Source of the DNA: Bacteroidaceae bacterium
Lineage (GTDB): Bacteria > Bacteroidota > Bacteroidia > Bacteroidales > Bacteroidaceae
Assembly: GCA_017962495.1 (NCBI GenBank)
Contig: JAGCVH010000103.1
Coordinates: 1 to 44,475, forward strand
Direction: 5' to 3'
Length of the DNA: 44,475 bases
Shown: in pieces, positions 5,361 through 27,184 of the stretch
Layout of the letters: each line of letters begins with the position of its first letter
How positions within the stretch are numbered: position 1 is the first letter of the stretch
Made by a program: the position numbers and the translations under genes
The notes under the pieces: generated by a model
What the model was told of the DNA's origin: nothing
The model's input: only the letters and a program-made list of their open reading frames with translations
Database searches by the model: none

Positions 5361-5536
5361 GCTTGTACGATGTCCTTCGAATGCTTGTACGAAGCCCTTC
5401 GAACGCTTGTTCGATGTCCTTTGAACGCTTGTTCGATGTCCTTTGAACGCTTGTTCGATGTCCTTTGAACGCTTGTTCGTTGTCCGTCGAGTACTAGTAC
5501 AATGGTCTTCAAGTGCTTGTGCAATGCCTTGCTTAT
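5361..5536. repeat. 22-bp tandem array 1 (eight units)
   Basis: Eight units start at 5361, 5383, 5405, 5427, 5449, 5471, 5493 and 5515. Units 3-5 are identical and the outer ones degenerate. A unit is a core of the form CGAACGCTTGTTCG, with arms CGAAC/GTTCG around GCTT, plus an 8-bp spacer such as ATGTCCTT. A weak ninth unit may precede (5339). It lies between the divergent GH43 and small exported-protein genes. The minus strand is open through it, but the resulting peptide is just the repeat translated, so I do not call a gene. The rest of 5202-5596 shows nothing else. Confidence 0.9.
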
Positions 5537-5596
5537 AGTCTCTCGACGATGATGATGATGAGGGATGGATAATACAACAAACTTGAAGATTTGAAA

Positions 5597-5628
5597 TTTG
5601 GTAATCTCAGAATTGTTATGTAACTTTG
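5597..5628 (+). promoter_or_regulatory. Promoter for the small acidic protein gene
   Basis: TTTG at 5597-5600, a 20-bp spacer, and TAACTTTG at 5621-5628 form a consensus Bacteroidota promoter. The ATG at 5633 follows the box by four bases, so the message should be nearly leaderless. Confidence 0.65.
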
Positions 5629-5632
5629 AACC

Positions 5633-5944
5633 ATGAAAACGATGCAGGTTTGTTTAGTCCTTTTGATGTTGCTGCTGACAACGGATTGCAGGCGAGAGAC
5701 TACGCCGAATGCTGTGGACACAGGAGTGCCAATGACGTATAGCGAGATCGAAGATGACCCCGTCGACTCGACCTTCCAGTCGCGTGACGAAGAGAGCGAG
5801 GACGACCACTTCGACCCGAACTACCGACCACGTGACGACGAGAGCGACAACCTGAGAGGCTTCGATCCGATATGGGAAGATGACATGGAAGACAACGGAA
5901 TGACACGCTATCAGGAAAACTATGACGAGGAGGGTTGGGACTGA
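5633..5944 (+). CDS. Small acidic exported protein, function unknown
   Basis: The 103-residue protein has a hydrophobic N-terminal segment ending LLLTTDC (Cys19), which may be a lipoprotein signal, although Asp before the Cys is unusual. The mature part is strongly acidic and contains a diverged internal duplication: SRDEESEDDHFDP and PRDDESDNLRGFDP. It has no recognisable domain and is probably unstructured outside the cell membrane. It has its own strong promoter directly before the ATG and lies upstream of ridA, which also has its own promoter. Such acidic proteins might bind cations, but that is a guess. The gene is credible because of the promoter, signal-like start and compositional purpose. 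Confidence 0.7.
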   Translation: MKTMQVCLVLLMLLLTTDCRRETTPNAVDTGVPMTYSEIEDDPVDSTFQSRDEESEDDHFDPNYRPRDDESDNLRGFDPIWEDDMEDNGMTRYQENYDEEGWD

Positions 5945-5959
5945 AAATCAGGCAGAAAG

Positions 5960-5991
5960 TTTGGTGGTATCAAGGAAAACGATTAACTTTG
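5960..5991 (+). promoter_or_regulatory. Promoter for ridA
   Basis: TTTG at 5960-5963, a 20-bp spacer and TAACTTTG at 5984-5991; the ridA ATG is at 6014. Confidence 0.65.
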
Positions 5992-6013
5992 TTTGCGATA
6001 AAAACGACGAACT

Positions 6014-6388
6014 ATGAAAGCAATTAAGACAAACATGGCTCCAGCGGCCATAGGTCCATACAGCCAGGCAATAGAGGCCAACGGAATGGTGTTCCTTAGT
6101 GGACAACTCCCCATCAATCCGCAGACGGGTGAGATGCCCGAAGGAATCGAGGCTCAGACAAGGCAGTCGCTAACTAACGCGCGTGCTATACTGACAGAGG
6201 CAGGACTGACCATGAGCGACGTGGTGAAGACCACCGTGTTGCTAGCCGACATTGCCGATTTTGCTGCCATGAACTCGGTCTATAGCGAGTTCTTCAGTGA
6301 ACCATTCCCTGCCCGCAGTGCTTTTGCCGTGAGGGATGTGCCCAAGGGCGCTCTGGTGGAGATAGAGTGCATTGCCGTGAAACGATAG
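6014..6388 (+). CDS. ridA: RidA family reactive imine deaminase
   Basis: RidA hydrolyses reactive enamine/imine intermediates released by PLP enzymes (2-aminoacrylate and relatives) and so protects them from damage. At 124 residues it is full length for the trimeric YjgF/YER057c/UK114 fold. Visible family features are IGPYSQAI (residues 13-20), FLSGQLPINP (27-36), the active-site Arg107 in VRDVPKGALVEIE, and the conserved C-terminal AVKR. It is cytoplasmic, with no signal peptide. The flavodoxin gene starts 43 bp downstream on the same strand and may be co-transcribed. Family assignment is firm; the physiological substrate is inferred from the family. Confidence 0.95.
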   Translation: MKAIKTNMAPAAIGPYSQAIEANGMVFLSGQLPINPQTGEMPEGIEAQTRQSLTNARAILTEAGLTMSDVVKTTVLLADIADFAAMNSVYSEFFSEPFPARSAFAVRDVPKGALVEIECIAVKR

Positions 6389-6431
6389 ACGAGAAATCTG
6401 AAAACGAATAATCTTAATATAGTATCGCATT

Positions 6432-7265
6432 ATGAAAAACTTGAAATGGTTGATGGTTTTGGCCATCGGAGTGTTGGTTGCCATCGCATGCAGTTCAAAG
6501 AAACCCGAGAAACAGCGCGTGCTGGTGCTCTATTACTCGCAGACATCGAACACCAAACAGGTGGCCGAGGAGATTGCCACTCGACTGGAGGCCGATATAG
6601 AGGAGATAGTGCTTAAGAACCCCTACGACGCAGATTTCCAAGCAACTATTGCCCGCAGTATGAAAGAGCGTGAAGAGGGCGTGACACCTGAAATCGAGCC
6701 TCTGAAGACCGACGTCAGTCAGTATGACGTGGTGTTCATCGGCTATCCCATCTGGTTCGGAACTTATGCACCTCCCATTGCAACATTGCTCGATAGCATT
6801 GACCTGACGGGTAAGAAGGTGGTGCCCTTCTGCACCTTCGGAAGCGGGGGCTTGGAGTCGAGTGTGAGGGATTTGACCGAGAAACTACCCAATGCCGAAA
6901 TTCTGCCCGGATATGGCGTTCGTGCAGCACGTATTAAGGCAGTTCCAGAGGAGATAGACCAATTCCTAAAGGCTGGTGGATTCGTGGAAGGCGAGTGCGT
7001 GAAACTGGAGGACTTTGGTGAGGCACACGACGCAAGCGAAGAGGAAGCGGCCATCTTCGATGCTGCAGTCGACGGTTATCCAATGATTCATGCCAAAGCG
7101 AAGACTGTGGCTTCAAGAGCCCTTCCCAATGGAACGGAATACCTATTTACTGCCGAGGATTTGCCAAGAGAGGGTGCCCCAGCAATGCCTGCTATGGGTG
7201 AAATGAAGGTGTATGTGACAGTCGTGGAAGGTGAAACGCCTGTGTTTACACGTGTGGTAAGATAA
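6432..7265 (+). CDS. Lipoprotein-anchored flavodoxin-like protein
   Basis: The 277-residue protein starts with a lipoprotein signal ending VAIAC (Cys20), so it should be attached to a membrane and not free in the cytoplasm. Residues about 29-185 form a flavodoxin fold with the FMN phosphate loop YYSQTSNTKQVA, the segment GYPIWFGTYAPPI and TFGSGGLESS, close to the Bacteroidota flavodoxin_4-type family. An extra C-terminal domain of about 90 residues (from KLEDFGEAHDAS on) is not recognised. It probably carries electrons between periplasmic or membrane redox partners. It lies between ridA and the zinc-ribbon gene, 10 bp upstream of the latter. Confidence 0.85.
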   Translation: MKNLKWLMVLAIGVLVAIACSSKKPEKQRVLVLYYSQTSNTKQVAEEIATRLEADIEEIVLKNPYDADFQATIARSMKEREEGVTPEIEPLKTDVSQYDVVFIGYPIWFGTYAPPIATLLDSIDLTGKKVVPFCTFGSGGLESSVRDLTEKLPNAEILPGYGVRAARIKAVPEEIDQFLKAGGFVEGECVKLEDFGEAHDASEEEAAIFDAAVDGYPMIHAKAKTVASRALPNGTEYLFTAEDLPREGAPAMPAMGEMKVYVTVVEGETPVFTRVVR

Positions 7266-7275
7266 ACTTTGATGA

Positions 7276-7422
7276 ATGAAAGACACGAAGGACATAGAAA
7301 ACAAGGAAACTCCTGAAGAGCAGGTGTATCATTGCAACGACTGCGGCAACGTGATTCATCGTCACGAAGTCTTCTGTTCGAAGTGCGGAAAACTGCTCGA
7401 CAGGTACGACTTTGAGGACTAA
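7276..7422 (+). CDS. Small zinc-ribbon protein, 48 residues
   Basis: A short frame starts with ATG at 7276 and ends with TAA at 7422. It contains two CxxC knuckles: CNDC (residues 20-23) and CSKC (34-37), the latter in FCSKCGKLLDRYDFED. This spacing suits one structural zinc ribbon, with a charged N-terminal tail (MKDTKDIENKETPEEQ). It starts 10 bp after the flavodoxin stop and is likely co-transcribed with it; a hairpin follows. The function is unknown; small zinc ribbons often bind RNA, DNA or a partner protein. The alternative ATG at 7272 is in another frame. Confidence 0.8.
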   Translation: MKDTKDIENKETPEEQVYHCNDCGNVIHRHEVFCSKCGKLLDRYDFED

Positions 7423-7433
7423 AAGGCGAAAAA

Positions 7434-7459
7434 GTGCAATTTCCCTTTGCCGATTGCAC
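7434..7459 (+). terminator. Stem-loop after the zinc-ribbon gene
   Basis: GTGCAAT (7434-7440) pairs with ATTGCAC (7453-7459) around 12 bases and is followed by a T-rich stretch. It lies 11 bp after the stop codon and overlaps the -33 element of the next promoter. It is probably the end of the flavodoxin unit. Confidence 0.5.
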
Positions 7460-7476
7460 CTAATTTCGTATTTTTG
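7446..7476 (+). promoter_or_regulatory. Promoter for the unknown gene at 7598
   Basis: TTTG at 7446-7449, a 19-bp spacer and TATTTTTG at 7469-7476. A start near 7480 leaves a leader of about 118 bases. Confidence 0.6.
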
Positions 7477-7501
7477 CATCAACATTTTTGACAACAATCG
7501 C

Positions 7502-7559
7502 ATGAAGACGGCCATGAGAGTGGCGTGACATGGGGTTGTTGTACTTTTTTATGTACAAC
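7502..7559 (+). promoter_or_regulatory. Leader with possible 8-residue uORF and hairpin
   Basis: The predicted leader holds an ATG frame at 7502-7528 encoding MKTAMRVA and stopping at TGA. A stem-loop follows: GTTGTAC (7538-7544) and GTACAAC (7553-7559) around TTTTTTAT. This order of short peptide then hairpin would allow translation-coupled control, but nothing shows that the peptide is made. Confidence 0.3.
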
Positions 7560-7597
7560 TTTCCCGAAGAGATGTTTGACTTAATGAAAGTTGTATT

Positions 7598-8047
7598 ATG
7601 GCAAAGAAAAAACGATTTGTCAAGGTGTGCAGTTGTACACCGAAGGGTGACATCAGGACGATGGACACCCGAGTGTTGAACTTGCTTGTCGAAGAACAGC
7701 AAAAGGCGATTGCCAATGAGCCGAACACGCGTAAAATGGCACAGAGGGCTCTGGAACTGGGCGAAGTGTGTATGGCGGCAGGATGTCCCATGATGGCCAT
7801 TCAGGTGTGGAAAAGTGCAGCAATGCGATTGGAGGCTATGGATTACTACTGGGTTTCAGAACCCATCAATCCGCAGTTCGTGCGCTTCGATGACCTTGTT
7901 TCGGCAAAAGAAGCAGTTACGTTAGGAAGGCGTATCGATAAGGTTTGGCATTTGCTCGGTCATCCGGAGATGGCCGTTTGGGCAAGAAAGATGAAGCATG
8001 CTTACGAAGACATGTGGTACGACAAGTACTACGAGTCATTGCCGTAA
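7598..8047 (+). CDS. Hypothetical helical protein, 149 residues
   Basis: I do not recognise this family. The protein has 149 residues, is cytoplasmic (no signal or membrane segment), has a basic N-terminus (MAKKKRFVKV), and is otherwise mostly amphipathic helix with Cys at 11, 13, 58 and 63. The stretch MAQRALELGEVCMAAGCPMM onward and the later helix with HLLGHPEMAVWARKM look like paired helices of the TPR type. Its tail is aromatic and acidic (YEDMWYDKYYESLP). It has its own promoter and leader. Codon use and length support a real gene; the function is unknown. Confidence 0.75.
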   Translation: MAKKKRFVKVCSCTPKGDIRTMDTRVLNLLVEEQQKAIANEPNTRKMAQRALELGEVCMAAGCPMMAIQVWKSAAMRLEAMDYYWVSEPINPQFVRFDDLVSAKEAVTLGRRIDKVWHLLGHPEMAVWARKMKHAYEDMWYDKYYESLP

Positions 8048-8072
8048 GCCAAGGGCCTCTCCTACAAAAAAC

Positions 8073-8105
8073 GCCCTCTCTTATGGAGAGGGTTGGGGTG
8101 AGGTC
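8073..8105. repeat. Dispersed GC-rich palindromic repeat, copy 3
   Basis: CCCTCTC (8074-8080) pairs with GAGAGGG (8086-8092) and is followed by TTGGGGTGAGGT. It lies between the convergent gene at 7598 and aguB and ends one base before the aguB stop codon. A partial copy (GGGCCTCTCC) precedes it. Confidence 0.75.
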
Positions 8106-8981
8106 CTAATCAATAAACCGCTGTGAAAGCCCTTGAAACTCGTCTATGCGACGGTCACGGAGGAAGGGCCACCAACGGCGAACCTGTTCGGAACGATGGA
8201 GGTCGATGTCAATAACGGCGTTGACCTCCTCGTCTTTTGGTGCACGATAGAGCATTTCGCCTTGAGGACCTGCCACAAAACTGCTTCCCCAGAACTGAAT
8301 GCCATTAGTTTGTCCGCTGGGATCGGGCTCATGGCCTACGCGATTGACGGCAATGACAGGGAGTCCGTTAGCTACAGCATGTCCTCGTTGAATGGTTGTC
8401 CAAGCTTCGCGTTGGCGTTCCTGTTCCTCAGGTGTGTCACTGCTCTCATAGCCGATGGCAGTGGGATAGATGAGCAATTCTGCACCCTGTAAGGCCATTA
8501 GGCGAGCACCTTCGGGATACCATTGGTCCCAGCAAACCTGCACTCCCAACAATCCAACACTTGTGGCAATGGGATGGAATCCCAAATCGCCTGGTGTGAA
8601 ATAGAACTTCTCGTAGTATGCAGGGTCGTCGGGTATGTGCATCTTGCGGTATTTGCCTGCAATCGAGCCGTCAGCTTCGAATACTACTGCCGTGTTGTGA
8701 TAGAGCCCAGGTGTACGTCGTTCGAAGAGGCTTGTCACGAGTACAATGCCATATTGGCGAGCCAATTGACCATAGAATTCCGTCGAAGGACCAGGTATGC
8801 TCTCTGCCAGATTGCAGTTATCCACATCCTCCACTTGACAGAAATAGAGGGAGTTGTGCAGTTCTTGCAGGATAACGAGTTTGGCACCTTTCCTGGCCAC
8901 ATCTGCTATATTGCGAGCTAGTTTCTGCTTATTGGCTTCCACGTCAGCCACGCATGATTGTTGTATGATACCTACTAACAT
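8106..8981 (-). CDS. aguB: N-carbamoylputrescine amidase (AguB)
   Basis: AguB is a nitrilase-superfamily amidohydrolase that converts N-carbamoylputrescine to putrescine, CO2 and ammonia. The 291-residue protein has the complete Glu-Lys-Cys triad: Glu40 in LQELHNS, Lys113 in YRKMHIPDDP and Cys150 in QVCWDQWYPE. The sequence GLYHNTAVVFEADGSIAGKY and the C-terminal RRWWPFLRDRRID are typical of the AguB branch. It follows aguA by 71 bp on the same strand, so the two steps from agmatine to putrescine are encoded together. The stop codon (TAG) directly abuts a dispersed repeat. Confidence 0.96.
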   Translation of the reverse strand: MLVGIIQQSCVADVEANKQKLARNIADVARKGAKLVILQELHNSLYFCQVEDVDNCNLAESIPGPSTEFYGQLARQYGIVLVTSLFERRTPGLYHNTAVVFEADGSIAGKYRKMHIPDDPAYYEKFYFTPGDLGFHPIATSVGLLGVQVCWDQWYPEGARLMALQGAELLIYPTAIGYESSDTPEEQERQREAWTTIQRGHAVANGLPVIAVNRVGHEPDPSGQTNGIQFWGSSFVAGPQGEMLYRAPKDEEVNAVIDIDLHRSEQVRRWWPFLRDRRIDEFQGLSQRFID

Positions 8982-9052
8982 GAATTAATAATTTACAATT
9001 AAATGTACTGTCTTTAAAGGGTTAATGGTATTGTTTTCTCAATTATCACTTT

Positions 9053-10201
9053 TCACTTCTTCACTTCTTCACTCTTAATCACTCCCACTGGGAATTGCAT
9101 TGCCGAGCAGTGCAGAGAACCATGTTGTTCGATGAGGATGCGGCAATCGACAGGCACAATCTCATGCTTTGGGAAGGCCTGCTGTAGTTGTTGGCGTGCT
9201 TGCTCGTCAAGCTTAGGACAACCGTATGTGGGCATAAGCACAGCACCATTGATACAGAGGAAATTGGCGTACGTGGCAGGCAATCGCATACCGTCTTCAT
9301 CGTATATTGCTTCAGCCATTGGCAGAGGAATAAGTTGGTAAGGTTTCCCTTCAAGCGTACGGAACTCCTGCAGTTGCTCTTCCATCTTCTTCAGTTCCTC
9401 GTAATGCTCATCGTCCTTGTCAAGACATTGGACGTAGGCAATGGTGTCATTCGGACACATACGTGCAAGCGTGTCGATGTGCGAATCCGTGTCGTCGCCT
9501 GCCAGATAGCCATAGTCGAGCCATAGGACGCGTTCCACTCGCAGATAGCGCTTCAGGCGGTCTTCAATCTCCGCTTGCGAGAGAGGCTGATTCCTATTGG
9601 GTGCAAGTAAGCATTTACTTGTGGTCATGATGGTTCCTCGTCCGTCGCATTCGATGCTTCCGCCTTCGAGCACAAAGTCGAGATGGTCTTCATATTGCCC
9701 GTTTAGCACGCCTTGTGACACGAGTTCACGATTAATCTGATTGTCAAGTTCGGCTGGGAATTTCTTGCCCCATCCATTAAACTGAAAATCGAGCAGGAGT
9801 GCCCCAATAGAGGTTTTCAGGGTGATGAATCCGTGATCGCGAGCCCAGGTGTCGTTGCTTGGGATGTTGTGAAGCGAGATGTTCGCCAGAGCGCGCTTGG
9901 GCAGGCGTTCCTTAAGCAATTGTCCTACGGCATCGGGTTCAGGCGTAATGATGATGAGACGCTCGCGCAAACTGATTTCCAGTGCCATATGGATGTAACA
10001 CTCCGTTACTTCCTTAAGCGTAGGAGCCCAATCGGTGGCTTTATGTGGCCACGTCAGTTGCACCCCGCTCTGCATTGCCCATTCGGCAGGCAGGTGTGTG
10101 GCGCGAATCTCACTTTGTTCAGGGCCTGCCAGACGTTCAGGTCGAAGCTCGTTCGTCAAGTCCTCGATGATGGTAGTTGTAAGCTTATAATGTATGCCCA
10201 T
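9053..10201 (-). CDS. aguA: Agmatine deiminase (AguA)
   Basis: AguA hydrolyses agmatine to N-carbamoylputrescine and ammonia. The 382-residue protein shows the family blocks LPAEWAMQSGVQLTWPH, NDTWARDHGFITL, DFQFNGWGKKFPAELDNQ, LEGGSIECDGRGTIMTT and the catalytic Cys near the C-terminus in GSLHCSAMQFP. About 34 residues precede the usual N-terminus; I keep the ATG at 10201 because the promoter box lies 26 bp upstream of it. The last residues (IKSEEVKK) are encoded by a simple GAAGTGAAGAAGTGA repeat that runs past the stop. aguB follows, and flavin reductase is divergent. Confidence 0.95.
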   Translation of the reverse strand: MGIHYKLTTTIIEDLTNELRPERLAGPEQSEIRATHLPAEWAMQSGVQLTWPHKATDWAPTLKEVTECYIHMALEISLRERLIIITPEPDAVGQLLKERLPKRALANISLHNIPSNDTWARDHGFITLKTSIGALLLDFQFNGWGKKFPAELDNQINRELVSQGVLNGQYEDHLDFVLEGGSIECDGRGTIMTTSKCLLAPNRNQPLSQAEIEDRLKRYLRVERVLWLDYGYLAGDDTDSHIDTLARMCPNDTIAYVQCLDKDDEHYEELKKMEEQLQEFRTLEGKPYQLIPLPMAEAIYDEDGMRLPATYANFLCINGAVLMPTYGCPKLDEQARQQLQQAFPKHEIVPVDCRILIEQHGSLHCSAMQFPVGVIKSEEVKK

Positions 10202-10227
10202 ATTGTCCTTTTCTTGCTATTTGTTGG

Positions 10228-10235
10228 CAAAGATA
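10228..10235 (-). promoter_or_regulatory. -7 promoter box for aguA
   Basis: TATCTTTG on the minus strand, 26 bp upstream of the aguA start. It shares a 103-bp divergent region with the flavin reductase promoter. Confidence 0.5.
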
Positions 10236-10267
10236 GGAAATTATTTTCATAATTTGATTAATTGTAT

Positions 10268-10275
10268 TAATTTTG
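10268..10275 (+). promoter_or_regulatory. -7 promoter box for flavin reductase-msrA
   Basis: TAATTTTG matches TAnnTTTG and precedes the ATG at 10305 by 29 bases. Confidence 0.5.
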
Positions 10276-10304
10276 CACCGCATTATAATATAATAATAAG
10301 GTAT

Positions 10305-10883
10305 ATGCGTAAGAACTTTGGAAAGAAGGGGATGTTTACCGCCCCTCTGCCCGTGCTTTTGGTCGGCACTTATGACAAGGATGGAGTGGCTAATCTGATG
10401 AATGTCGCTTGGGGTGGACAATGTAGCGAACACCATGTTGCCCTGAATCTGGGTCATGAGCGTCAAACTCTGGAGAATATGCGTCTTAAGGGCGAGTTCA
10501 CGGTAATGTTTGCCACACAGGAGACGATGGTACAAGCCGATTACGTCGGCATTGTGTCTGGATTGAAGGTACACGACAAGGTGCCCAATAGTGGTTTGAC
10601 TCCGATGAAGGCCGAGATGGTGGATGCTCCTGCTTTCGAGGAACTTCCTGTGACTTTGGAATGCCGTGTTGCAAGCATTCGTGAAGAGCCCACCGGTGAG
10701 GTGCGTGTGACTGGCGAGGTGGTGAACCTAAGTGCAGAGGAAAGCGTGCTTAATGATAAGGGACGTGTGGACTTTGACAAAGTTCATTTGATTTGTTTCG
10801 ATGAATCGACATTGACCTATCGCGCAGTTGGCCAGGTGGTTGGCAATGCCTTCGTAGCAGGGAACAAGATTCGTAAAGGATGA
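10305..10883 (+). CDS. Flavin reductase family protein
   Basis: The 192-residue protein belongs to the flavin reductase-like FMN-binding split-barrel family (DIM6/NTAB type). Family features are KGMFTAPLPVLLVGTYDKDG near the start, ANLMNVAWGGQCSEHH, LNLGHERQTLENM, and the segment GLKVHDKVPNSGLT. Members bind FMN and reduce it or use it for NAD(P)H-dependent reactions; the real substrate is unknown. I start at 10305 because conservation begins there and the promoter box ends at 10275; an in-frame ATG at 10194 lies upstream of that box. It overlaps msrA by four bases (ATGA), so translation is probably coupled and a redox-repair role is suggested. Confidence 0.9.
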   Translation: MRKNFGKKGMFTAPLPVLLVGTYDKDGVANLMNVAWGGQCSEHHVALNLGHERQTLENMRLKGEFTVMFATQETMVQADYVGIVSGLKVHDKVPNSGLTPMKAEMVDAPAFEELPVTLECRVASIREEPTGEVRVTGEVVNLSAEESVLNDKGRVDFDKVHLICFDESTLTYRAVGQVVGNAFVAGNKIRKG

Positions 10884-11395: not shown

Positions 11396-11449
11396 TGATG
11401 GAATACTCACATTTTTATCTTTTAATTTTTAATTCTTAATTTTTCTTCG

Positions 11450-11457
11450 TACCTTTG
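11450..11457 (+). promoter_or_regulatory. -7 promoter box for the Nif3-like gene
   Basis: TACCTTTG, 36 bases before the GTG start at 11494, in an AT-rich stretch made of TTTAATTTTTAATTC-like repeats. Confidence 0.5.
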
Positions 11458-11493
11458 CCCACGGTTTAAGAAACCACACATACTTCATACAGC

Positions 11494-12294: not shown

Positions 12295-12319
12295 ATCATA
12301 ATAAACATAAAATCAAATT

Positions 12320-13153
12320 ATGGCAAGTAAAGTTAAAGACCCTGTTGAACTGACTGTAGAGGACAAGCTGAAGAACCTCTATCAGTTGCAAACAATGCTG
12401 TCGGAAATCGACAAAATCAAGACCTTGCGCGGCGAATTGCCTTTGGAAGTGCAGGACTTGGAGGACGAAATCGAGGGACTTACCACCCGTATCGAGAAGA
12501 TCCAGAATGAGATCGTAGAGATGAAGCGCGAGATTGTCGACAGACGCGGAAACATCGAGTCCGCAACATCCACCATCAACAAGTATAAGGAGCAGATGGA
12601 CAATGTCAGGAATAATCGTGAATACGACTCGCTGAATAAGGAAATCGAGTTCCAAAAGCTTGATATCGAGCTGAACCAGAAGAAGATACGCGAAGCAGAA
12701 GAGGCCATTCAGCAACGAACCGATGATTTGGCTCGTAGCACTGAGGCTGTGACAGAACGCCGCACTGACTTGGACATCAAGAAGTCGGAGTTGGAGGAAA
12801 TCGTTGCCGAGACTCGTGCCGAGGAAGAGAAATTGCGTGAGCGTTCGAAGAACTTGGAGGCTCAAATCGAACCTCGCTTGCTGGCATCCTTCAAGCGCAT
12901 CCGTCGCAATTCGCGCAATGGACTGGGCATCGTTTATGTTCAGCGCGACGCTTGTGGTGGTTGCTTCAACAAGATTCCGCCCCAGCGCCAACTCGACATT
13001 CGCATGCGTAAGAAGATTGTTGTATGTGAGTATTGCGGACGCATCATGATTGACCCCGAACTGGCTGGCGTTCAGCTTGTTAAGGCGGAAGCAAAGCCCA
13101 AGCGCACACGTCGTTCCACAAAGAAGGCTGCAGAAGAGAATACGGAGGATTAA
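12320..13153 (+). CDS. C4-type zinc ribbon, coiled-coil protein
   Basis: The 277-residue protein has a long coiled coil (about residues 15-190, rich in E, K, R and heptad leucines/isoleucines) followed by a C4 zinc ribbon: CGGC at about 212-215 and CEYC at about 235-238, separated by IPPQRQLDIRMRKKIVV. It matches the zf-RING_7 (PF02591) family of bacterial coiled-coil zinc-ribbon proteins. The C-terminal tail is lysine/arginine-rich (AKPKRTRRSTKKAA), suggesting nucleic acid contact. It lies directly downstream of the Nif3-like gene and is followed by a strong terminator. Family assignment is good; the molecular function is uncertain. Confidence 0.9.
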   Translation: MASKVKDPVELTVEDKLKNLYQLQTMLSEIDKIKTLRGELPLEVQDLEDEIEGLTTRIEKIQNEIVEMKREIVDRRGNIESATSTINKYKEQMDNVRNNREYDSLNKEIEFQKLDIELNQKKIREAEEAIQQRTDDLARSTEAVTERRTDLDIKKSELEEIVAETRAEEEKLRERSKNLEAQIEPRLLASFKRIRRNSRNGLGIVYVQRDACGGCFNKIPPQRQLDIRMRKKIVVCEYCGRIMIDPELAGVQLVKAEAKPKRTRRSTKKAAEENTED

Positions 13154-13180
13154 ACCTCTCCGTTTCGTGCACAAAAGATA

Positions 13181-13215
13181 AAGGGATTAGGGCAATGAGC
13201 CTTAATCCCTTTTCT
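13181..13215 (+). terminator. Intrinsic terminator after the zinc-ribbon gene
   Basis: AAGGGATTAGGGC (13181-13193) pairs along its full length with GCCTTAATCCCTT (13199-13211), with one G-U pair and a 5-base loop, then TTCTATT. Its right arm is also the first unit of the neighbouring 22-bp array. Confidence 0.85.
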
Positions 13216-13374
13216 ATTAGCTCTTAGGCGTTATTTAATCGGACCTTAGGCCTTATTGATTTGCACCTTAGGCTCATTTGATTTGCACCTTAGGCTCATT
13301 TGTTTTGCACCTTAGGCGTAAATTCATCGAGCCTAAATCCCTTTTTCCGAAGACTTAACGCCTTATCCCTATAT
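13199..13374. repeat. 22-bp tandem array 2 (eight units)
   Basis: Units begin at 13199, 13221, 13243, 13265, 13287, 13309, 13331 and 13353, all in exact 22-bp register. The middle four share ACCTTAGGC with spacers such as TTTGATTT, and the outer ones keep only a CTTA or CCTAA core. Palindromy is weaker than in the other arrays. It lies between the convergent zinc-ribbon and HsdR_N genes. Confidence 0.88.
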
Positions 13375-13389: not shown

Positions 13390-13845
13390 TTAATTAGTAA
13401 TCGTTGTGTAGTCAGGAATCTCAGGTAGAAAAGTGCAGACGTTTGTATCATAATCCACACGGCAACAATAGTGTTGCAAGCCGTTCGAAACCATGAGATA
13501 TGGTACACGCAGGACGATGTTGTAGCGCGTAATCTGGTCGAAAGTCTTTTGCGAAAGCAGTATGTTTGGTGCTTTGTACTCCATAATCGCCAATGGGCGT
13601 GCTTCCTTGTCGTAGAGCACTGTGTCGCAACGCTTCGAAGTCGTGTTCAGCGTAAGCGAAACCTCGTTGGCAAGCGACTCTTGAGGGTAGCCCTTGTGGT
13701 GGACGAGATAGTGCACAAAATGCTGCCGAACCCACTCCTCTGGCGTCAACCTGACATAGCGGCGACGCAGAAAATCGAACACCAAAGTATGGCCTTCGCG
13801 TTGGCTTAGTCGCAATTCGGCAGGGGGTAGGTTTAACGTCATCAT
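13390..13845 (-). CDS. HsdR N-terminal domain protein (putative nuclease)
   Basis: The 151-residue protein matches the stand-alone type I restriction enzyme R-subunit N-terminal domain (HSDR_N_2, PF13588). The PD-(D/E)xK-like core is visible: Asp74 in RCDTVLYDKEARPLAIMEYK with Glu89-x-Lys91, and an upstream helix with VRQHFVHYLVHHKGYPQESL. No helicase, methylase or specificity subunit is nearby, so it is not a restriction system as such. In Bacteroidota such genes are commonly found near holA, as here; a role in DNA metabolism is inferred. Two ATGs are adjacent (13845, 13842); the promoter box ends five bases upstream. Confidence 0.88.
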   Translation of the reverse strand: MMTLNLPPAELRLSQREGHTLVFDFLRRRYVRLTPEEWVRQHFVHYLVHHKGYPQESLANEVSLTLNTTSKRCDTVLYDKEARPLAIMEYKAPNILLSQKTFDQITRYNIVLRVPYLMVSNGLQHYCCRVDYDTNVCTFLPEIPDYTTITN

Positions 13846-20094: not shown

Positions 20095-20175
20095 CTGGGT
20101 TTTCTGAGTAATTTGATTATTCTGAGCAATCCGGGTAATCTGAAGACTCGGAGTATTCCGATTGTTCAGAGTCTT
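20095..20175. repeat. 9-bp degenerate tandem repeat spanning a stop codon
   Basis: Nine units of the type CTGAGTAAT (starting 20095, 20104, 20113, 20122, 20131, 20140, 20149, 20158, 20167) cross the 3' end of the MFS gene. Because 9 is a multiple of three, they encode an (E/D)-x-S tail ending YPDCSE, and the same pattern continues beyond the TAA at 20117-20119. Confidence 0.7.
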
Positions 20176-21397: not shown

Positions 21398-21665
21398 TGT
21401 CTCAGATTCATGTTTCGGGGGACTAAGATACAAAGAACTGGGCAACTGAGCAAACATCCTGTCCTTTTTTTCTCTCACGGCCTCGCTTCCCCGTATCCAT
21501 GAGGCTACTCGCCAGTATATACTCACAGAAGTAGAGAGTATGGGGGTGAAGCCCTGTCGTATGATTCCTCCTATCCTGATTCTATTGTCCTTTTCGTCCT
21601 GATAGATAGAGCCAGGGCGATTATTCATAGGAGTAATTGCGGGAACGCCTATATGCAACTCATAA
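21398..21665. other. Non-coding upstream region of the MFS gene
   Basis: The minus-strand frame of the MFS gene is open here without a family-like sequence. No promoter box fits the consensus well (GTTCTTTG at about 21437-21444 is the nearest). I see no RNA gene. Confidence 0.4.
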
Positions 21666-21841
21666 AAGACTTAAGTCTTACAGCGATAAGACTTAAGTCT
21701 TTCACCATTAAGACCTAGGTCTTTCATCAATAAGACTTAAGTCTTTCGTCGTTAAGACCTAAGTCTTTCAAACATAAGATATATGTCTTTCTTTGTTAGC
21801 GAGCAGGAGTTATCCCATAAACGCTTATGCGTCATCAGCTC
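21666..21841. repeat. 22-bp tandem array 3 (six clear, two diverged units)
   Basis: Units start at 21666, 21688, 21710, 21732, 21754, 21776, 21798 and 21820. The core is the perfect palindrome AAGACTTAAGTCTT followed by an 8-bp spacer such as TCATCAAT. Unit 3 has AAGACCTAGGTCTT, a paired change that keeps the palindrome; unit 8 keeps ACGC/GCGT arms in register. It lies between the divergent MFS and yjbQ genes. Nothing else is seen in 21842-21987. Confidence 0.9.
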
Positions 21842-21987
21842 GACACCTATGTATGCTGAACATTTCTTACTAAATGCGAGGGTGCTTCCTCCCCATGCTT
21901 TTTGCTTTGCATAGTTGTGAATTGCTTTTTATCTAGTATCCCAGACTTCGCTTTAGATAGGCTTCACCTCAGGAAAGTTCAAATATA

Positions 21988-22019
21988 TTTGCTTTTCCAT
22001 TCGGCTTGCACTATCTTTG
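21988..22019 (+). promoter_or_regulatory. Promoter for yjbQ
   Basis: TTTG at 21988-21991, a 20-bp spacer and TATCTTTG at 22012-22019. It supports the start at 22058 over an upstream in-frame ATG at 21902. Confidence 0.65.
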
Positions 22020-22057
22020 TGGTGGTGAAACAACTTAATGGGACTTATATTTATATT

Positions 22058-22471
22058 ATGGTAACACAAATAGAACTGACATTGCGCCCTCGTCCTCGAG
22101 GCTTTCACCTGGTGACTGCTGAGATAATGGGACAATTGCCGACGCTTCCTCGAACGGGGATAGTGAACATCTTTACGAAGCACACGAGTTGTGGATTATG
22201 CATTAACGAGAATTGCGACCCTGACGTGCGGACGGACATGGAAACGGTCTTCAACCGAATTGTGCCAGAGGGGAGGGCGGAATATACGCACACGCTGGAA
22301 GGAGCAGACGATATGCCGGCACACGCCAAGTCGGCGATTACGGGTGTGAGCCTGTGCATTCCCATTACGGAGGGACGACTGGCGCTGGGCACGTGGCAAG
22401 GCATCTACCTGTGTGAGTACCGCAACTATGGCGGTCCCCGAAGGCTGGTGGTGACAATTATGGGGGAATAG
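22058..22471 (+). CDS. yjbQ: YjbQ family protein (UPF0047)
   Basis: The 137-residue protein is a full-length YjbQ/UPF0047 member: a small trimeric beta-rich fold with a conserved His/Glu/Asp cluster, visible as FTKHTSCGLCINENCDPDV near residues 37-55, and RAEYTHTLEGADDMPAHAK. The C-terminus GTWQGIYLCEYRNYGGPR is also typical. Some family members show weak thiamine-phosphate synthase activity, but the physiological role is unknown. The start at 22058 is set by the promoter box at 22012-22019 and by where family similarity begins. It appears to be a single-gene unit. Confidence 0.93.
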   Translation: MVTQIELTLRPRPRGFHLVTAEIMGQLPTLPRTGIVNIFTKHTSCGLCINENCDPDVRTDMETVFNRIVPEGRAEYTHTLEGADDMPAHAKSAITGVSLCIPITEGRLALGTWQGIYLCEYRNYGGPRRLVVTIMGE

Positions 22472-22560
22472 TTGTTAGTACGATTCGGACTTATATTGTA
22501 TCTCTGTTGCAGTGATTATCTGTCAAGGATAAGGATATGGATACAATGGCTTCCGTCTTT

Positions 22561-22600
22561 AACCCCTTAACCTGTCAACCTGTTAACCCTTTAACCTTTT
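22561..22600. repeat. Short repeats of the AACCTGTTAACC type
   Basis: About 40 bases are built from CTTAACCTGT, CAACCTGTTAACC and CTTTAACCTT. It lies between yjbQ and the GH78 gene; the rest of 22472-22660 shows nothing clear. Confidence 0.45.
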
Positions 22601-22661
22601 ATAAACCCCGCTCAGCGTCAACCTTGTTAGTTTTTCTGCCTGATACGATGTGAGATGAAAA

Positions 22662-22669
22662 TATTTTTG
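22662..22669 (+). promoter_or_regulatory. -7 promoter box for GH78-pyrKD
   Basis: TATTTTTG, 31 bases before the GH78 ATG; an alternative TAACTTTA follows directly (22670-22677). The -33 element is not clear. Confidence 0.4.
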
Positions 22670-22700
22670 TAACTTTAACCCGTCAAGAAAAGAAATAAAT

Positions 22701-25274
22701 ATGAAGAAAAGCGTAATTTGGTTGGTGGCAGTGCTGTTTCTGACAGTCTCTTGCACGCACACAACAGAAAAAGGAAACGCGCGCGCGCAGGCGTTTTCTG
22801 ACGAGGCTTGGGGTCTTGCAGAATGGCTTTCGGTGGCCGATGCTCCTGTAGTGACGGGTCGTGTCACTGATGGCGAGAACAATTGTTCTGCCCCAGGTGC
22901 CAGTTGGTTTATGACGACACTTAATAACGAGAAGCGAGTGGCGAAAGCCCGTTGGATGACAACGTCGTTGGGTGTCTTCGAACTCTTTGTCAATGGTCAA
23001 CTTGTGGGCGAAGAAGTGTTGCGCCCTGGTTTTACTCATCCGCTGAAGACCCGTCGCACGTTCACCTATGACATCACACCCCTGTTGCATCGTGGCAAGG
23101 GAGAGGCGAATGTCCTTTCTGCCCAGGTCACTCCTGGTTGGTGGGGCGACAAGATTATCACCCCGTCTGGCAGCAATGGAATGTGGGGCACCAAGTGCGC
23201 CTTCCGCGGTGTGCTGGAAGTCACCTACACTGACGGTACTACTCGTCGCTATGGTACTAATCCTTCCGATTGGAGGTCGGGCATTGCTGGTCCTGTGAAG
23301 CATGCTGGCATCTTCGAGGGTGAGCGTTACGATGCTCGTCAGCCTATGGGATTCGATACGCCAGAGGCCTTGTCAACTCCTGAGATAAATCGTGAGTTCA
23401 AGGGCGAACTTTTACCCTCGCAAGGCGCCGAGATTTTCCATCGCCACGATATTGCTTTGCCTGTCCATCGTGCCTACGTTTGGAGTCGTGTCGAAGGGGC
23501 TGGTAATGAAGCCTATGGCAAGGTTGTGGTGGAGCGAGAGTATGATGCGAAGGAGACCATGATTCTGCACAAGGGCGAGACGCTGGTGGTGGATTTCGGA
23601 CAGAATGCCGCTGCAGTGCCTTCCTTCGTTTTTAAGGCTTCGGAGGGAACGGTTCTGACCTGTCTGCCTGGTGAGTTGCTGAACGATGGTAATGGTGCCA
23701 AGAGTCGAGGCATGGATGGTCCAGAGGGTACTGTCCACAGGCTCAATCTGCGTAGTGCCGACAAACATATGCGACTCGAATACACCTTCGGGGCGGGGGA
23801 GAACTATGTTGAGTATACGCCTCGAAGCACATTCTTCGGCTATCGTTTCATCTCCCTCACTGCCACTGACGACGTGAGCATCCGCAGCCTTTGTTCGATA
23901 CCTGTGACCAGCATTTCCCAGAGTATGGAGACAGGTACACTGGTGACAGGCAACAAGGACATCAACCAACTTATCTCTAACACCCTTTGGGGCATGCGCA
24001 GCAACTATCTGTCTGTCCCCACTGATTGTCCACAGCGCAACGAACGACAAGGTTGGACGGCCGACACGCAAGTGTTCACAGGGACAGGCTCTTTCTTTGC
24101 CGATACACGCCAATTCTTCCACAAATGGATGCGTGATATGCGCGATACCCAGAGTCCTCAAGGAGGATTCCCAGGCGTAGCGCCCATCGGTCAGTATGGC
24201 GATGCAGGCATGATGCGTGTGGGTTGGGCCGATGCTGGCATCATTGTCCCTTGGACCATCTGGAAGCAGTTTGCCGACCGCGACATAGTCGATGAGAATT
24301 GGGAGGCAATGGAGCGCTATATGAATCACATCAACGAGACCCATTACGACCATGTGGCTCTAAGTGGCGAGAATGGCAACTATCAGTGGGCCGACTGGCT
24401 CAGTTACGAACCGCTGGAGAGTTGTGGTGGAGGAGCCTTTGATGGCGGACCTCGTCCAGAGGCTATTGTGTATTGGAGTTACTTGAGTGCCAGCTATTGG
24501 GCTATCGATGCTCAGGCTATGTGCGATATGGCAGCAGCCACAGGGCGCGACGCCCAGCGTTACAGACGTATGGCAGAGGAAGCCCGAGCCTATCTGCGCG
24601 AGCATTTCCTCACGGCCGATGGTACCTTCACGACCCCCATCCTTAACACAATGCAGACGCCAGCTCTCTTTGCTCTGCGTAATGGATTGGTGAGCGGGAA
24701 GGCGAAAGAGGACATGATCAGTCGTCTGCGTAAGAACTTCGACGAGCACGGAGGATGCTTGCAAACGGGCTTCCTTGGTACTTCCATCCTCATGTCCACG
24801 CTCACGAGCAACAATATGCAGGATGTGGCTTACGAACTGCTATTCCAACGCAAGAACCCTAGTTGGCTCTATTCCATCGACAACGGAGCTACCACCATGT
24901 GGGAACGCTGGAACAGTTATATGGCCGATAAGGGTATGGGACCACAAGGCATGAACAGCTTCAACCATTATGCTTACGGATGCGTCTGCCAGTGGTTGTG
25001 GGAGTCTGCTGCAGGCATTGCGTCCGATCCAGCTTCGCCTGGTTTCCGCCATATCATCATGCGCCCCATTCCTGACAAGCGTTTGGGATATGTCAAAGCC
25101 GAATATCCGTCGGCAGCTGGTGTTATCAAGAGTTCTTGGCGTTTTGATGGCGACCAGTGGACGTGGGAGTTCGTAATACCCGAAGGCGCTACGGCGAGCG
25201 TTACACTGCCTGGCGAAACGGAAACTAAGACGTATGGTAGTGGTAAACACAAAGTGAAGAAAACCATTGACTGA
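22701..25274 (+). CDS. GH78 alpha-L-rhamnosidase, lipoprotein
   Basis: The 857-residue enzyme belongs to GH78, which removes terminal L-rhamnose from pectin side chains or plant glycosides. A lipoprotein-type signal ends at Cys18 (FLTVSC). N-terminal beta-domains contain WLSVADAPVVTGR and VSLGV-type rhamnosidase_N elements (about 25-250); the catalytic (alpha/alpha)6 barrel holds PTDCPQRNERQGWTADTQ (general acid Glu448) and MWERWNSY (putative base Glu735), and a C-terminal beta-domain ends the protein. Only 9 bp separate it from pyrK on the same strand, an odd pairing of a polysaccharide enzyme with pyrimidine synthesis genes. It may act with the pectate lyase at 31728. Confidence 0.95.
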   Translation: MKKSVIWLVAVLFLTVSCTHTTEKGNARAQAFSDEAWGLAEWLSVADAPVVTGRVTDGENNCSAPGASWFMTTLNNEKRVAKARWMTTSLGVFELFVNGQLVGEEVLRPGFTHPLKTRRTFTYDITPLLHRGKGEANVLSAQVTPGWWGDKIITPSGSNGMWGTKCAFRGVLEVTYTDGTTRRYGTNPSDWRSGIAGPVKHAGIFEGERYDARQPMGFDTPEALSTPEINREFKGELLPSQGAEIFHRHDIALPVHRAYVWSRVEGAGNEAYGKVVVEREYDAKETMILHKGETLVVDFGQNAAAVPSFVFKASEGTVLTCLPGELLNDGNGAKSRGMDGPEGTVHRLNLRSADKHMRLEYTFGAGENYVEYTPRSTFFGYRFISLTATDDVSIRSLCSIPVTSISQSMETGTLVTGNKDINQLISNTLWGMRSNYLSVPTDCPQRNERQGWTADTQVFTGTGSFFADTRQFFHKWMRDMRDTQSPQGGFPGVAPIGQYGDAGMMRVGWADAGIIVPWTIWKQFADRDIVDENWEAMERYMNHINETHYDHVALSGENGNYQWADWLSYEPLESCGGGAFDGGPRPEAIVYWSYLSASYWAIDAQAMCDMAAATGRDAQRYRRMAEEARAYLREHFLTADGTFTTPILNTMQTPALFALRNGLVSGKAKEDMISRLRKNFDEHGGCLQTGFLGTSILMSTLTSNNMQDVAYELLFQRKNPSWLYSIDNGATTMWERWNSYMADKGMGPQGMNSFNHYAYGCVCQWLWESAAGIASDPASPGFRHIIMRPIPDKRLGYVKAEYPSAAGVIKSSWRFDGDQWTWEFVIPEGATASVTLPGETETKTYGSGKHKVKKTID

Positions 25275-25283
25275 CGAGATACA

Positions 25284-26060
25284 ATGAAGAAGATTATAGA
25301 TTTGCGTGTGACTCTGTCGGAAAGGGTGGGGGCACAATGCGTACTGCTGAAAGCTAAACCCGTAGAAGGGCGCTTGCCTGAGTGCAAGCCAGGACAGTTT
25401 GCCCAACTTCGGGTCGATAATCCCGAGACATTCCTCCGACGCCCCATCAGCATACACGATGTGGAAGGCGACGAAATATCCTTCCTCGTTCAGGAGGTCG
25501 GCAAAGGCACTTCGTGGCTGTGTTCGCTCAAGGAGGGCGACCTGCTTAACGCCGTGTTGCCGTTAGGTAATGGGTTTACGCTTCCCTGTGCAAAGTCAAC
25601 CTGCCCGTCACTCCTTATCGGTGGAGGCGTGGGCGTTGCTCCCCTTTTGTTCTTGGGCAAACGGCTTAGGGAACAAGGTGTGAAGCCCACTTTCCTGCTT
25701 GGTGCTCGCTCAAAGGCTCAGCTCATTCGCCTCGATGCCTTTCGTGAGATTGGCGATGTGTTTGTGACTACCGAGGACGGAAGCGAGGGAGAACGCGGAT
25801 TTGTGACGCAACACTCACTCTTCACCTCTCATTCCTCACCTCTCTCTTTCATATACACTTGTGGCCCTATGCCTATGATGAGGGCTGTGGCAAAGTTGGC
25901 AAGGGAGAGAGGCATTGAGTGTGAGTTGTCGTTGGAGAATCGTATGGCTTGTGGCGTTGGGGCTTGTCTCTGCTGCGTTGAGGAATTGGCTGATGGCCAC
26001 AACCATTGCGTATGCACAGAAGGACCAGTGTTTGATGCCCGAAAGATAATCGATAATTGA
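25284..26060 (+). CDS. pyrK: Dihydroorotate dehydrogenase electron-transfer subunit PyrK
   Basis: PyrK passes electrons from the PyrD FMN through FAD and a [2Fe-2S] cluster to NAD+ in class 1B dihydroorotate dehydrogenase. The 258-residue protein has the FAD-binding block [11 protein letters not shown], the NAD-binding [30 protein letters not shown], and the iron-sulfur cysteines in [13 protein letters not shown] plus the later [11 protein letters not shown]. An unusual insert [12 protein letters not shown] (about residues 178-189) is encoded by a TCACCTCT-type simple repeat that looks like intruded repeat DNA. The pyrD start is 7 bp downstream. Confidence 0.97.
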
Positions 26061-26067
26061 AAGAAGT

Positions 26068-26982
26068 ATGATGGCTGATTTAAGTGTAATTATTGGAGGT
26101 TTAGCTTTGCGTAATCCTGTGATGACGGCAAGCGGAACGTTTGGTTATGGGTTGGAGTTCGAAGACTTTGTCGACCTGAGTCAGTTGGGAGGCATCGTGG
26201 TTAAAGGCACTACCCTGAAGCCTCGCGAGGGGAATCCCTATCCTCGTATGGCAGAGACCGCCAGCGGAATGCTCAATTGCGTAGGGTTGCAGAACAAAGG
26301 TGTCGATTACTTCTGCGAGCACATCTATCCGCAAGTGAAGAACCTGCCGACAAACGTCATTGTGAACGTGAGCGGAAGCACCATCGACGATTATGCAGAA
26401 ACAGCCAGTCGCATTGCCGAACTGGAATGCATACCAGCCATCGAACTCAACATTTCCTGTCCTAACGTGCGTCAGGGCGGGATGGCTTTCGGTGTTACAT
26501 GTGAAGGCGCAAGCAGTGTGGTAAAGGCAGTCAGGAAGGCTTATCCGAAGACGCTTATCGTAAAGCTCTCGCCCAATGTGACGGACATTGCCGAGATAGC
26601 GCGGGCGGTCGAAAGCGAAGGTGCTGACAGCGTCTCGCTCATAAACACGCTCATGGGTATGGCCATTGACGCAGAAAAGCGGAAGCGAATTCTTAGCATC
26701 GGCACTGGTGGTTTGAGTGGACCTGCCGTCAAGCCCGTTGCTCTTCGCATGGTTTATCAGGTGGCCCGCGCTGTCAAGATTCCCGTCGTGGGATTAGGAG
26801 GCATCATGACGGCTGTCGACGCTGTAGAGTTCCTCCTGGCAGGCGCTACGGCAGTGGAGATAGGGACGGCCAATTTCATTGACCCCAGTGTAACCATGAA
26901 GATTGTAAGGGGAATCAAAGAATATCTCGATAGGCACGGCTTCCAGTCAGTGCGCGACATCATTGGCGCTTTGGAAGAATAA
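26068..26982 (+). CDS. pyrD: Dihydroorotate dehydrogenase catalytic subunit PyrD
   Basis: PyrD oxidises dihydroorotate to orotate, the fourth step of pyrimidine synthesis. The 304-residue protein is class 1[56 protein letters not shown] with the active-site Cys, and the FMN-binding [20 protein letters not shown]. It pairs with PyrK, upstream by 7 bp, as a heterotetramer using NAD+. Two ATGs are adjacent (26068, 26071); either fits. It ends the plus-strand block; a 22-bp array lies between it and the convergent alkaline phosphatase gene. Confidence 0.97.
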
Positions 26983-27052
26983 AGCGTCGTGAGCACTTAA
27001 TTCGTCATTTTGTCGTGAAGTTATAGGCTCTTCGTAAAGGTATGACTCACCT

Positions 27053-27184
27053 CGAACTTAGGTTCGAGGCGTGTTGAACCTATATTCGATACGCATTGAA
27101 CCTATATTCGAGGCAACTCGAACCTATGTTCGAAGTGTGTTGAACATAGGCCCTGTTACCCTTGAACCTAAAGCCCTATTTGGA
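27053..27184. repeat. 22-bp tandem array 4 (six units)
   Basis: Units start at 27053, 27075, 27097, 27119, 27141 and 27163. The first core is CGAACTTAGGTTCG and the fourth CGAACCTATGTTCG; spacers include AGGCGTGT and ATACGCAT. The core arms CGAAC/GTTCG are the same as in array 1, although the centres differ. It lies between the convergent pyrD and alkaline phosphatase genes. The flanks (26983-27052, 27185-27224) show nothing clear. Confidence 0.88.

Follow-up and report, generated by a model that had tools for sequence, protein, structure and literature searches.

Intergenic repeat arrays in Bacteroidaceae combine a constant 22-bp period with lineage-specific cores: candidate binding lattices for a dimeric protein

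Four intergenic repeat arrays in a 44,475-bp stretch of DNA from a Bacteroidaceae bacterium (hereafter, the window) all repeat every 22 bp, although their motifs differ, which raises the question why a period should be common to arrays that are not copies of one element. The window corresponds to contig C59 in an assembly of 2.95 Mb that is 85% complete (genome G000; other genomes and sampled loci are likewise cited by number). As judged by one protein, encoded by pyrD, its nearest relatives are gut and rumen assemblies labelled Bacteroidaceae, Bacteroidales, Prevotellaceae, Paraprevotella, and Prevotella. Direct reading, a lag scan, and Tandem Repeats Finder all located the four arrays at the places given in a preliminary description of the window. 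In the lag scan (lags 10 to 60, 62% match over 88 bp), only lags 22 and 44 passed, and no lag passed in five Markov-shuffled windows; the best lag-22 matches of arrays 1 to 4 were 93, 78, 78, and 67%, respectively. Tandem Repeats Finder additionally detected short window repeats with periods of 7 to 14 bp, and a laxer scan yielded two more repeats, with periods of 48 and 18 bp, both in coding sequence.

Occurrence of the 22-bp period was analyzed in further DNA of the same genome and of its relatives with a period detector based on a single threshold (identity at 42 of 66 positions for a given lag). Intergenic and coding assignments were made with a home-made gene-finding script and are approximate. 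Periods of 22, 44, or 66 bp accounted for 4/4 intergenic arrays in the window. The sample of G000 comprised 20 stretches (328 kb beyond the window), and in these the share was 7/10 in seven stretches chosen for matches to array 1 and 7/12 in 13 stretches picked blind. Corresponding shares were 33/40 in stretches of 12 same-genus genomes, 33/100 in 74 relatives' loci, 5/11 in other genera of the family, 0/2 in other families of the order (308 kb), 3/16 in other Bacteroidota (760 kb), and 0/1 in E. coli (250 kb). The relatives' loci are not independent, as all of them surround pyrD and some are orthologous. Loci from assemblies that duplicate same-genus genomes were dropped: six in the period spectrum and in the other-period control for symmetry, and five in the tests of dyad spacing, position, exact repeats, and conservation and in those on a set of 84 arrays. 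Summed over the family samples, these periods were found in 89 of 177 intergenic arrays versus 1 of 49 coding arrays, and in the relatives' loci periods of 21 and 23 bp were represented by 7 and 5 arrays. Array density per 100 kb was 8.9 in the same-genus genomes (biased upward, because 8 of the 12 were chosen for an array in the pyrK-pyrD gap), 3.7 in the blind G000 stretches, 2.5 in the relatives' loci, 1.2 in other genera of the family, and at most 0.4 beyond the family. The sharp excess at 22 bp that the preliminary description had predicted for the genome and its relatives was thus observed, in genome samples rather than in whole genomes.

Exact repeats of at least 11 nt at lags 22, 44, and 66 numbered 125, 69, and 32 in intergenic DNA, versus 2, 2, and 3 in genic DNA. 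Other intergenic peaks, at lags 14 (58), 21 (39), and 77 (42), were taken for 7-bp repeats and tRNA genes. Intergenic repeats at lags 14, 21, 28, and 35 in the relatives suggest that a further repeat class, with a 7-bp unit, is present. Two period-23 arrays of G000 (L018:12694-12832 and L023:6866-6999), with the core CCGTCAA...TTGACGG, form a separate family, whose core contains CGTC, the word of one super-family of repetitive extragenic palindromes (REPs).

Within the 22-bp arrays, the core and its distance to the next core appear to be kept, rather than the whole unit, and the strongest evidence for this came from counts of pattern spacing. In a 372-kb sample of G000, which includes the seven stretches picked for array-1 matches, 26 of 28 successive intergenic matches to GAAC-N4-GTTC (at most one mismatch) that lay less than 200 bp apart were separated by exactly 22 bp. 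Core centres were mixed and flipped inside single arrays of this genome (e.g., GCTT, CTAT, GCTT, ATAG). In the whole of G000, TCGAAC-N{0,30}-GTTCGA had 63 forward matches, compared to 3 for a reversed-pattern control; among the 50 matches listed, the gap was 4 bp in 30 and 26 bp, that is 4 + 22, in nine. The pattern GTTCGA-N{0,30}-TCGAAC had 51 matches (control: 3), and among the 50 listed the gap was 6 bp in 28 and 28 bp in seven. Among the 28 listed six-bp spacers 26 were distinct, and a weak KKNNMM pattern was apparent. GTTCGA-N{0,30}-TCGAAC had 1 to 14 matches per genome in 20 further members of the genus (reversed pattern: 0 to 12). Matches to CACGTG-N{0,30}-CACGTG numbered 532 in G044, 47 in G035, and 2 in G000 (controls: 3, 2, and 1). 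In G035, 44 of the 47 CACGTG pairs had a gap of 16 bp, which places the words 22 bp apart, and these gaps held 39 distinct spacers. In G044, among the 28 of 532 pairs listed, 21 had a gap of 16 bp (22 apart), five a gap of 15 bp (21 apart), and two a gap of 18 bp (24 apart). Most spacers differed from one another (26/28 distinct in G000, 39/44 in G035), yet identical units occurred in array 1 and some units were repeated in G035. The occurrence of like cores 22 bp apart, despite differing spacers and centres, supports the earlier argument that the common period did not arise by random duplication.

Arrays of one genome tended to have one core, which contradicts the claim of the preliminary description that such arrays have no sequence in common. 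A GTTAACGTGTTA-like core was present in 4/4 arrays of G008, CACGTGA in 5/7 arrays of G044, AAAGGCC in 5/5 arrays of locus L112, and ACCTATG in 10/18 arrays of G000; G005, G025, and G043 had no 7-mer common to their own arrays. Of 224 within-genome array pairs, 55 had a unit similarity of at least 13/22, compared to 60 of 3262 between-genome pairs, with the reservation that pairs in this comparison are not independent. Within the window, the description of each array as having its own motif was correct in part, as arrays 1 and 4 have TCGAAC/GTTCGA arms in common. An exact TCGAAC-N4-GTTCGA occurs once in array 1 and twice in array 4. Unit similarity of these two arrays was 11.1/22 (column-shuffled mean 8.9, 99% point 11.2), and that of the other five array pairs in the window ranged from 8.2 to 10.0.

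A second symmetric word, TTGSCAA, was observed half-way between cores in arrays of G005, G008, G012, G028, G032, and G035. In the arrays of these six genomes it occurred 4 to 13 times per kb, versus 0 to 0.6 times per kb in other intergenic DNA. It was not enriched in arrays of G000, G021, and G025, and hardly in those of G044.

A consensus stem of at least 6 bp was present in 23 of the 84 22-bp arrays; shuffled units gave 2.7, and among random intergenic 22-mers 5.0% had such a stem. When a different score was used, a consensus dyad with p ≤ 0.05 was obtained for 9 of 61 22-bp arrays (mean z 1.05). The layout with a palindromic core that had been described for all four window arrays was clear in array 3 only (consensus p 0.02); array 1 gave a p of 0.06 and arrays 2 and 4 gave p ≥ 0.99. 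Where symmetry is present, it resembles a pair of half-sites recognized on duplex DNA more than a selected fold, because paired positions do not co-vary within arrays; the flipped centres agree with this interpretation.

No array of the 84 was located in coding sequence, and a single coding 22-bp array was found in another genus. Gene context was analyzed for 78 of these arrays (six at stretch ends were excluded) relative to 1016 gaps of at least 60 bp. Convergent gaps were over-represented (27/78 arrays vs. 178/1016 gaps, p 0.0005) and divergent gaps under-represented (10/78 vs. 240/1016, p 0.03), while 41/78 arrays and 598/1016 gaps were codirectional. Arrays in codirectional gaps were closer to the upstream stop codon in 32 of 41 cases (p 0.0004), and 7 of the 10 arrays in divergent gaps lay at least 190 bp from both predicted starts. 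Neighbours of G000 arrays showed no common function: a scan of 20 proteins encoded next to arrays, a set that covers the flanks of most of the 17 arrays outside the window, yielded one MerR-type regulator. In G005 and G008, the convergent gap of array 2, as judged by its neighbour proteins, is likewise occupied by 22-bp arrays, with different sequences. Among 30 same-genus loci of the gene that precedes array 2, four (that of the window included) carry a 22-bp array immediately downstream, which is about the convergent-gap rate and no excess.

Presence of arrays differed between relatives at a single site. At the pyrK-pyrD junction, surveyed in 60 of 80 relatives' loci, a 22-bp array was present in 4, and in 48 of the 56 others pyrK and pyrD overlap or lie at most 48 bp apart. 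Genomes G005, G008, G012, G028, G032, G035, G043, and G044 have a pyrK-pyrD spacer of about 143-188 bp that is largely array; the four loci of the survey duplicate sequences from four of these eight genomes. Motifs of the eight arrays vary and their period is constant, and the arrays were probably gained rather than lost. The eight junction arrays are those at loci L043, L044, L045, L050, L037, L041, L047, and L048. Change by a whole unit was seen in G012 and G032 (92% identical, 36 kb), in which one array differs by exactly one 22-bp unit. In a comparison of two arrays of this pair, one was identical over the repeat and the second was 88% identical. Array conservation in this pair was 94.6% (88% when taken from the other genome), versus 86% for other intergenic DNA, and in G005/G043 it was 97%, over 33 bp only. 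Better conservation of arrays than of other intergenic DNA was rejected as a general rule, since it fails in most genome pairs.

Coordinates of the window arrays and of their neighbours are compiled in Table 1. The 22-bp period was reproduced, whereas the repetitive cores of three arrays are shorter than described; for arrays 1 to 4, the cores span about 5353-5526 (7 units), 13223-13317 (4 units), 21666-21798 (6 units), and 27054-27133 (3 full units), respectively. Array 1 has an exact core, TCGAACGCTTGTTCGA, at 5399-5414, and three units at its centre are identical, spacers included. In array 3, five of six units carry the word AAGAC-YTWR-GTCTT, the remaining unit being AAGATATATGTCTT. The exact cores of array 4 lie at 27052-27067 and 27118-27133, and its centres (TTAG, CTAT, CTAT, CTAT) are thus present in both orientations.

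Table 1. Repeat arrays of the window, their flanking genes, and other features
Feature	Position	Strand	Description
Array 1	5353 to about 5526-5536		7-8 units of 22 bp, GCTTGTTCGATGTCCTTTGAAC type
Array 1, left flank (divergent)	3107 to about 5160	leftward	glycosidase-like gene by sequence reading
Array 1, right flank (divergent)	from 5633	rightward	small open reading frame
Array 2	13223 to about 13317-13340		4-5 units, word CCTTAGGC
Array 2, left flank (convergent)	12320-13153	+	
Array 2, right flank (convergent)	13390-13845	-	HSDR_N domain
Inverted repeat AAAGGGATTA...TAATCCCTTTT	13180-13213		just ahead of array 2, separate from the repeat; terminator-like by eye
Array 3	21666-21798		6 units, spacers of 8 bp
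Array 3, left flank (divergent)			MFS transporter
Array 3, right flank (divergent)			UPF0047 protein
Array 4	about 27052-27133, degenerate to about 27175		3 full units, 4-6 in all, GAAC-N4-GTTC type
Array 4, left flank (convergent)	26068-26982	+	dihydroorotate dehydrogenase (pyrD) by sequence reading
Array 4, right flank (convergent)	27225-28643	-	alkaline phosphatase
Coding repeat, period 48	5731-5863		in small acidic open reading frame 5633-5944 without Pfam match (E 0.001)
Open reading frame, 388 residues	17126-18292		sole Pfam matches (E 0.001) are sigma-70 region-4 types, residues 120-180

The explanation that we favour, at a likelihood somewhat short of even, is that the arrays form lattices of sites in duplex DNA that are recognized by a dimeric protein whose specificity differs between lineages. 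Confidence is limited by two results: symmetry is not confined to arrays with period 22, and two of the four window arrays fail the consensus dyad test. Each array would be a local part of a system of binding lattices that extends over the chromosome and serves a dimeric protein with two-fold symmetry, which would probably be nucleoid-associated or topological, rather than one that acts at promoter operators. Each dimer would take one symmetric core, here TCGAAC-N4-GTTCGA, and neighbouring dimers would touch or cooperate when their cores lie 22 bp apart; such contacts are proposed as the reason why the 22-bp spacing is kept while centre and spacer drift. The core would change from lineage to lineage, presumably along with the specificity of the protein, and the geometry would remain unchanged. 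This would require either a changed specificity with kept neighbour contacts or several related proteins with one geometry. Because the arrays lie away from promoters, a role in the nucleoid, in DNA topology, or as boundaries is suggested, and binding might affect nucleoid structure, supercoiling, or transcriptional read-through.

Judged from sequence, the shape of the lattice, in which like sites follow one another at a fixed pitch and the spacers vary, is the one expected to be selected by dimers that bind duplex DNA cooperatively. Traits of an operator lattice (symmetric half-sites, a free centre, and a fixed distance between centres) were found for TCGAAC-N4-GTTCGA and CACGTG, and were absent from array 2 and from the many dyad-less arrays. 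Dyad symmetry above chance fits the earlier proposal of a dimer on duplex DNA, but such symmetry is not peculiar to period 22. Its argument from helical phase failed in the form given. DNA has 10.5 bp per helical turn, so that 22 bp corresponds to 2.1 turns and a period of 21 bp would fit at least equally well, yet period 22 greatly exceeds period 21. Helical phasing alone was rejected as the cause of the 22-bp period on the basis of the same period spectrum. Extended to the Prevotella-type Bacteroidaceae as a group, a more tentative proposal is that a dimeric nucleoid protein coats hundreds of intergenic tracts with an invariant 22-bp pitch, and that the core is replaced between species while the geometry is inherited.

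Several results weigh against binding lattices of this kind. A protein for the arrays was not identified. Symmetry is a feature of such intergenic arrays in general and not of period 22 alone: intergenic arrays with other periods nearly matched those with 22 bp, with a stem of at least 6 in 11/47. Five of these 11 have a period of 21 or 23 bp, and in some of the rest the unit is longer and offers more chances of a stem. Moreover, 48 of the 84 arrays have no consensus stem of at least 5, and arrays that fail the consensus dyad test include two of the four in the window. More than one core family is present in several genomes (TCGAAC type, CCTTAGGC, and AAGACTTAAGTCTT in G000; five arrays of differing sequence in G035), and one protein with narrow specificity therefore cannot explain all arrays. 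Dyads of unrelated sequence showed no excess of 22-bp spacing, which was seen only among like cores; their spacing peaked at 11 bp, since a dyad that is repeated every 22 bp must also give 11. Some units were copied whole, with their spacer (three in array 1 and repeated units in G035), an array inside the pyrK-pyrD operon is an odd site for a DNA-coating protein, and in G035/G044, G005/G035, and G005/G044 arrays were conserved no better than other intergenic DNA.

If the lattice explanation is correct, the arrays would represent an uncharted layer of chromosome organization in an abundant family of gut bacteria, with hundreds of sites in some species (532 pairs in G044). They would also exemplify an unusual form of DNA-protein co-evolution, with a changing word and a constant spacing, and the core of each species would predict a bait for finding the protein. 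If the arrays are only a mutational product, the sharp preference for 22 bp would be a new fact on bacterial replication or repair.

Among the alternatives, an unlikely one is that the arrays are REP-like parasitic palindromes, i.e., self-copying extragenic elements that expand locally and whose 22-bp unit is ancestral, without a binding partner of its own. Cores that are common within and different between genomes, the bias toward 3' ends and convergent gaps, and the presence of arrays at one locus in some species and their absence from it in others are all consistent with such elements. However, PF01797, the Y1 transposase domain associated with REPs, was not found (E ≤ 0.001) in the array-bearing genomes G000, G005, G008, and G012, which are 85-89% complete. 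A PF01797 match was obtained in 4 of 16 genomes, array-bearing G021 among them. No leader, tail, or terminal repeat was noticed, although no systematic search for these was made. Common descent would furthermore allow the length of the spacer to change, whereas 44 of the 47 spacers of G035 have a length of 16 bp and 39 of them are distinct.

A mutational origin, in which slippage or strand switching at small hairpins favours 22-bp duplications in this clade and yields neutral minisatellites, is quite unlikely. The exact one-unit difference between G012 and G032 and the identical units in the middle of array 1 fit this mechanism, as does conservation no better than that of other intergenic DNA in most genome pairs. 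Outside arrays, exact repeats of at least 11 nt were also more frequent at lag 22 (9) than at lags 19, 20, 23, and 24 (1, 2, 2, and 1, respectively); the 14 repeats at lag 21 and 27 at lag 14 were taken for 7-bp repeats. Slippage, however, copies the centre and spacer too, and these vary while the core and its spacing stay. A single core at unlinked loci of a genome would not be expected from it either, and slippage is not known to us to show a preference for 22 bp.

The preliminary description had proposed strings of RNA hairpins as its own alternative. In this scenario, which is improbable, tandem stem-loops in mRNA would protect 3' ends, end transcription, or be bound by an RNA-binding protein. 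Sites at 3' ends of genes and inside operons would suit such a role. Window arrays 1 to 4 also folded better than shuffled sequences, with z scores of -4.2, -3.5, -9.1, and -8.7 on the plus strand and -1.6, -3.9, -7.9, and -7.1 on the minus strand. Unit order had a slight effect on folding (64 arrays, mean z -0.24, standard error 0.09, strands not independent), with 15 of 128 tests in the best 5%. The small size of this effect argues against the scenario, and best folds of most window arrays were long hairpins of unit with unit rather than strings of small ones. Compensatory changes numbered 14, versus 14.3 after permutation, in the 36 of 84 arrays with a consensus stem of at least 5, and the excess of G-U (41) over A-C (27) on the transcribed strand had a p of 0.11. 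Folding in sense and antisense direction was equal (z -0.34 and -0.35), and no match to Rfam was obtained in the window at gathering scores. The proposal of hairpin strings was consequently not upheld. Rho sites were rejected as a candidate, as no excess of C was found on the transcribed strand (mean GC skew +0.076).

Preferred gyrase sites at places where convergent transcription piles up supercoils, analogous to E. coli BIME-2 (BIME: bacterial interspersed mosaic element), are highly improbable. The bias toward 3' ends and convergent gaps agrees with them, as does a mild tendency of AA/TT/TA to recur every 11 bp within units (z 2.4), but in G/C content no clear period of 11 or 22 bp stood out against column shuffles (z 1.9 and -3.3), and sequence-specific cores would not be expected. 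Gyrase sites are reported in PMC6379681 to lie in BIME-2 and behind transcribed operons, with G/C variation that is phased at 10 bp.

Of published elements, the closest one found was the BrickBuilt minisatellite, a miniature inverted-repeat transposable element (MITE) of Porphyromonas gingivalis, which consists of intergenic 23-nt tandem direct repeats at many loci, with 1 to 22.8 copies. As described in the parts of the source consulted, it is one sequence family with a leader, a tail, and IS5-like terminal repeats, found in P. gingivalis and P. gulae, and 41-, 23-, and 22-nt tandem repeats had been described earlier in P. gingivalis W83, without exact locations (PMC4596501). The present arrays resemble BrickBuilt, for which stem-loops were predicted, in that both are intergenic tandem repeats of similar length at many loci of Bacteroidales; they differ in having a 22-bp period and several species-specific core families instead of 23 nt and a single family. 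Inspection of the flanks of the window arrays by eye, without a systematic search, revealed no leader or tail of the BrickBuilt type and no terminal inverted repeats. REPs, in the portion of PMC3733652 consulted, are mostly 20-40 bp long with a GTAG or CGTC tag, some with a Y1 transposase. The arrays share with REPs and BIMEs their nature as extragenic palindromes of lineage-specific sequence that occur in arrays, as well as position and 3'-end bias, whereas the accounts consulted do not describe a constant 22-bp lattice with a changing core. By eye, a GTAG or CGTC tag was lacking in the window cores TCGAAC-N4-GTTCGA, CCTTAGGC, and AAGACTTAAGTCTT. Apart from the remark on strain W83, no 22-bp arrays of Prevotella or Bacteroides were described in the literature covered, which did not extend to preprints and most subscription papers.

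Change of copy number by whole units, the trait of minisatellites and variable-number tandem repeats, was found in the single 22-bp unit that distinguishes G012 from G032. Clustered regularly interspaced short palindromic repeats (CRISPR) combine identical repeats with long unique spacers and accompanying cas genes; the cores and the spacers of 6-16 bp observed here are unlike CRISPR repeats and spacers. Cooperative operator arrays of dimeric repressors, such as lambda OR and ArgR boxes, have symmetric sites about two helical turns apart with a free centre and spacer. Such operators comprise few sites at a promoter, whereas the arrays described here comprise dozens to hundreds of sites per genome, most of them away from promoters.

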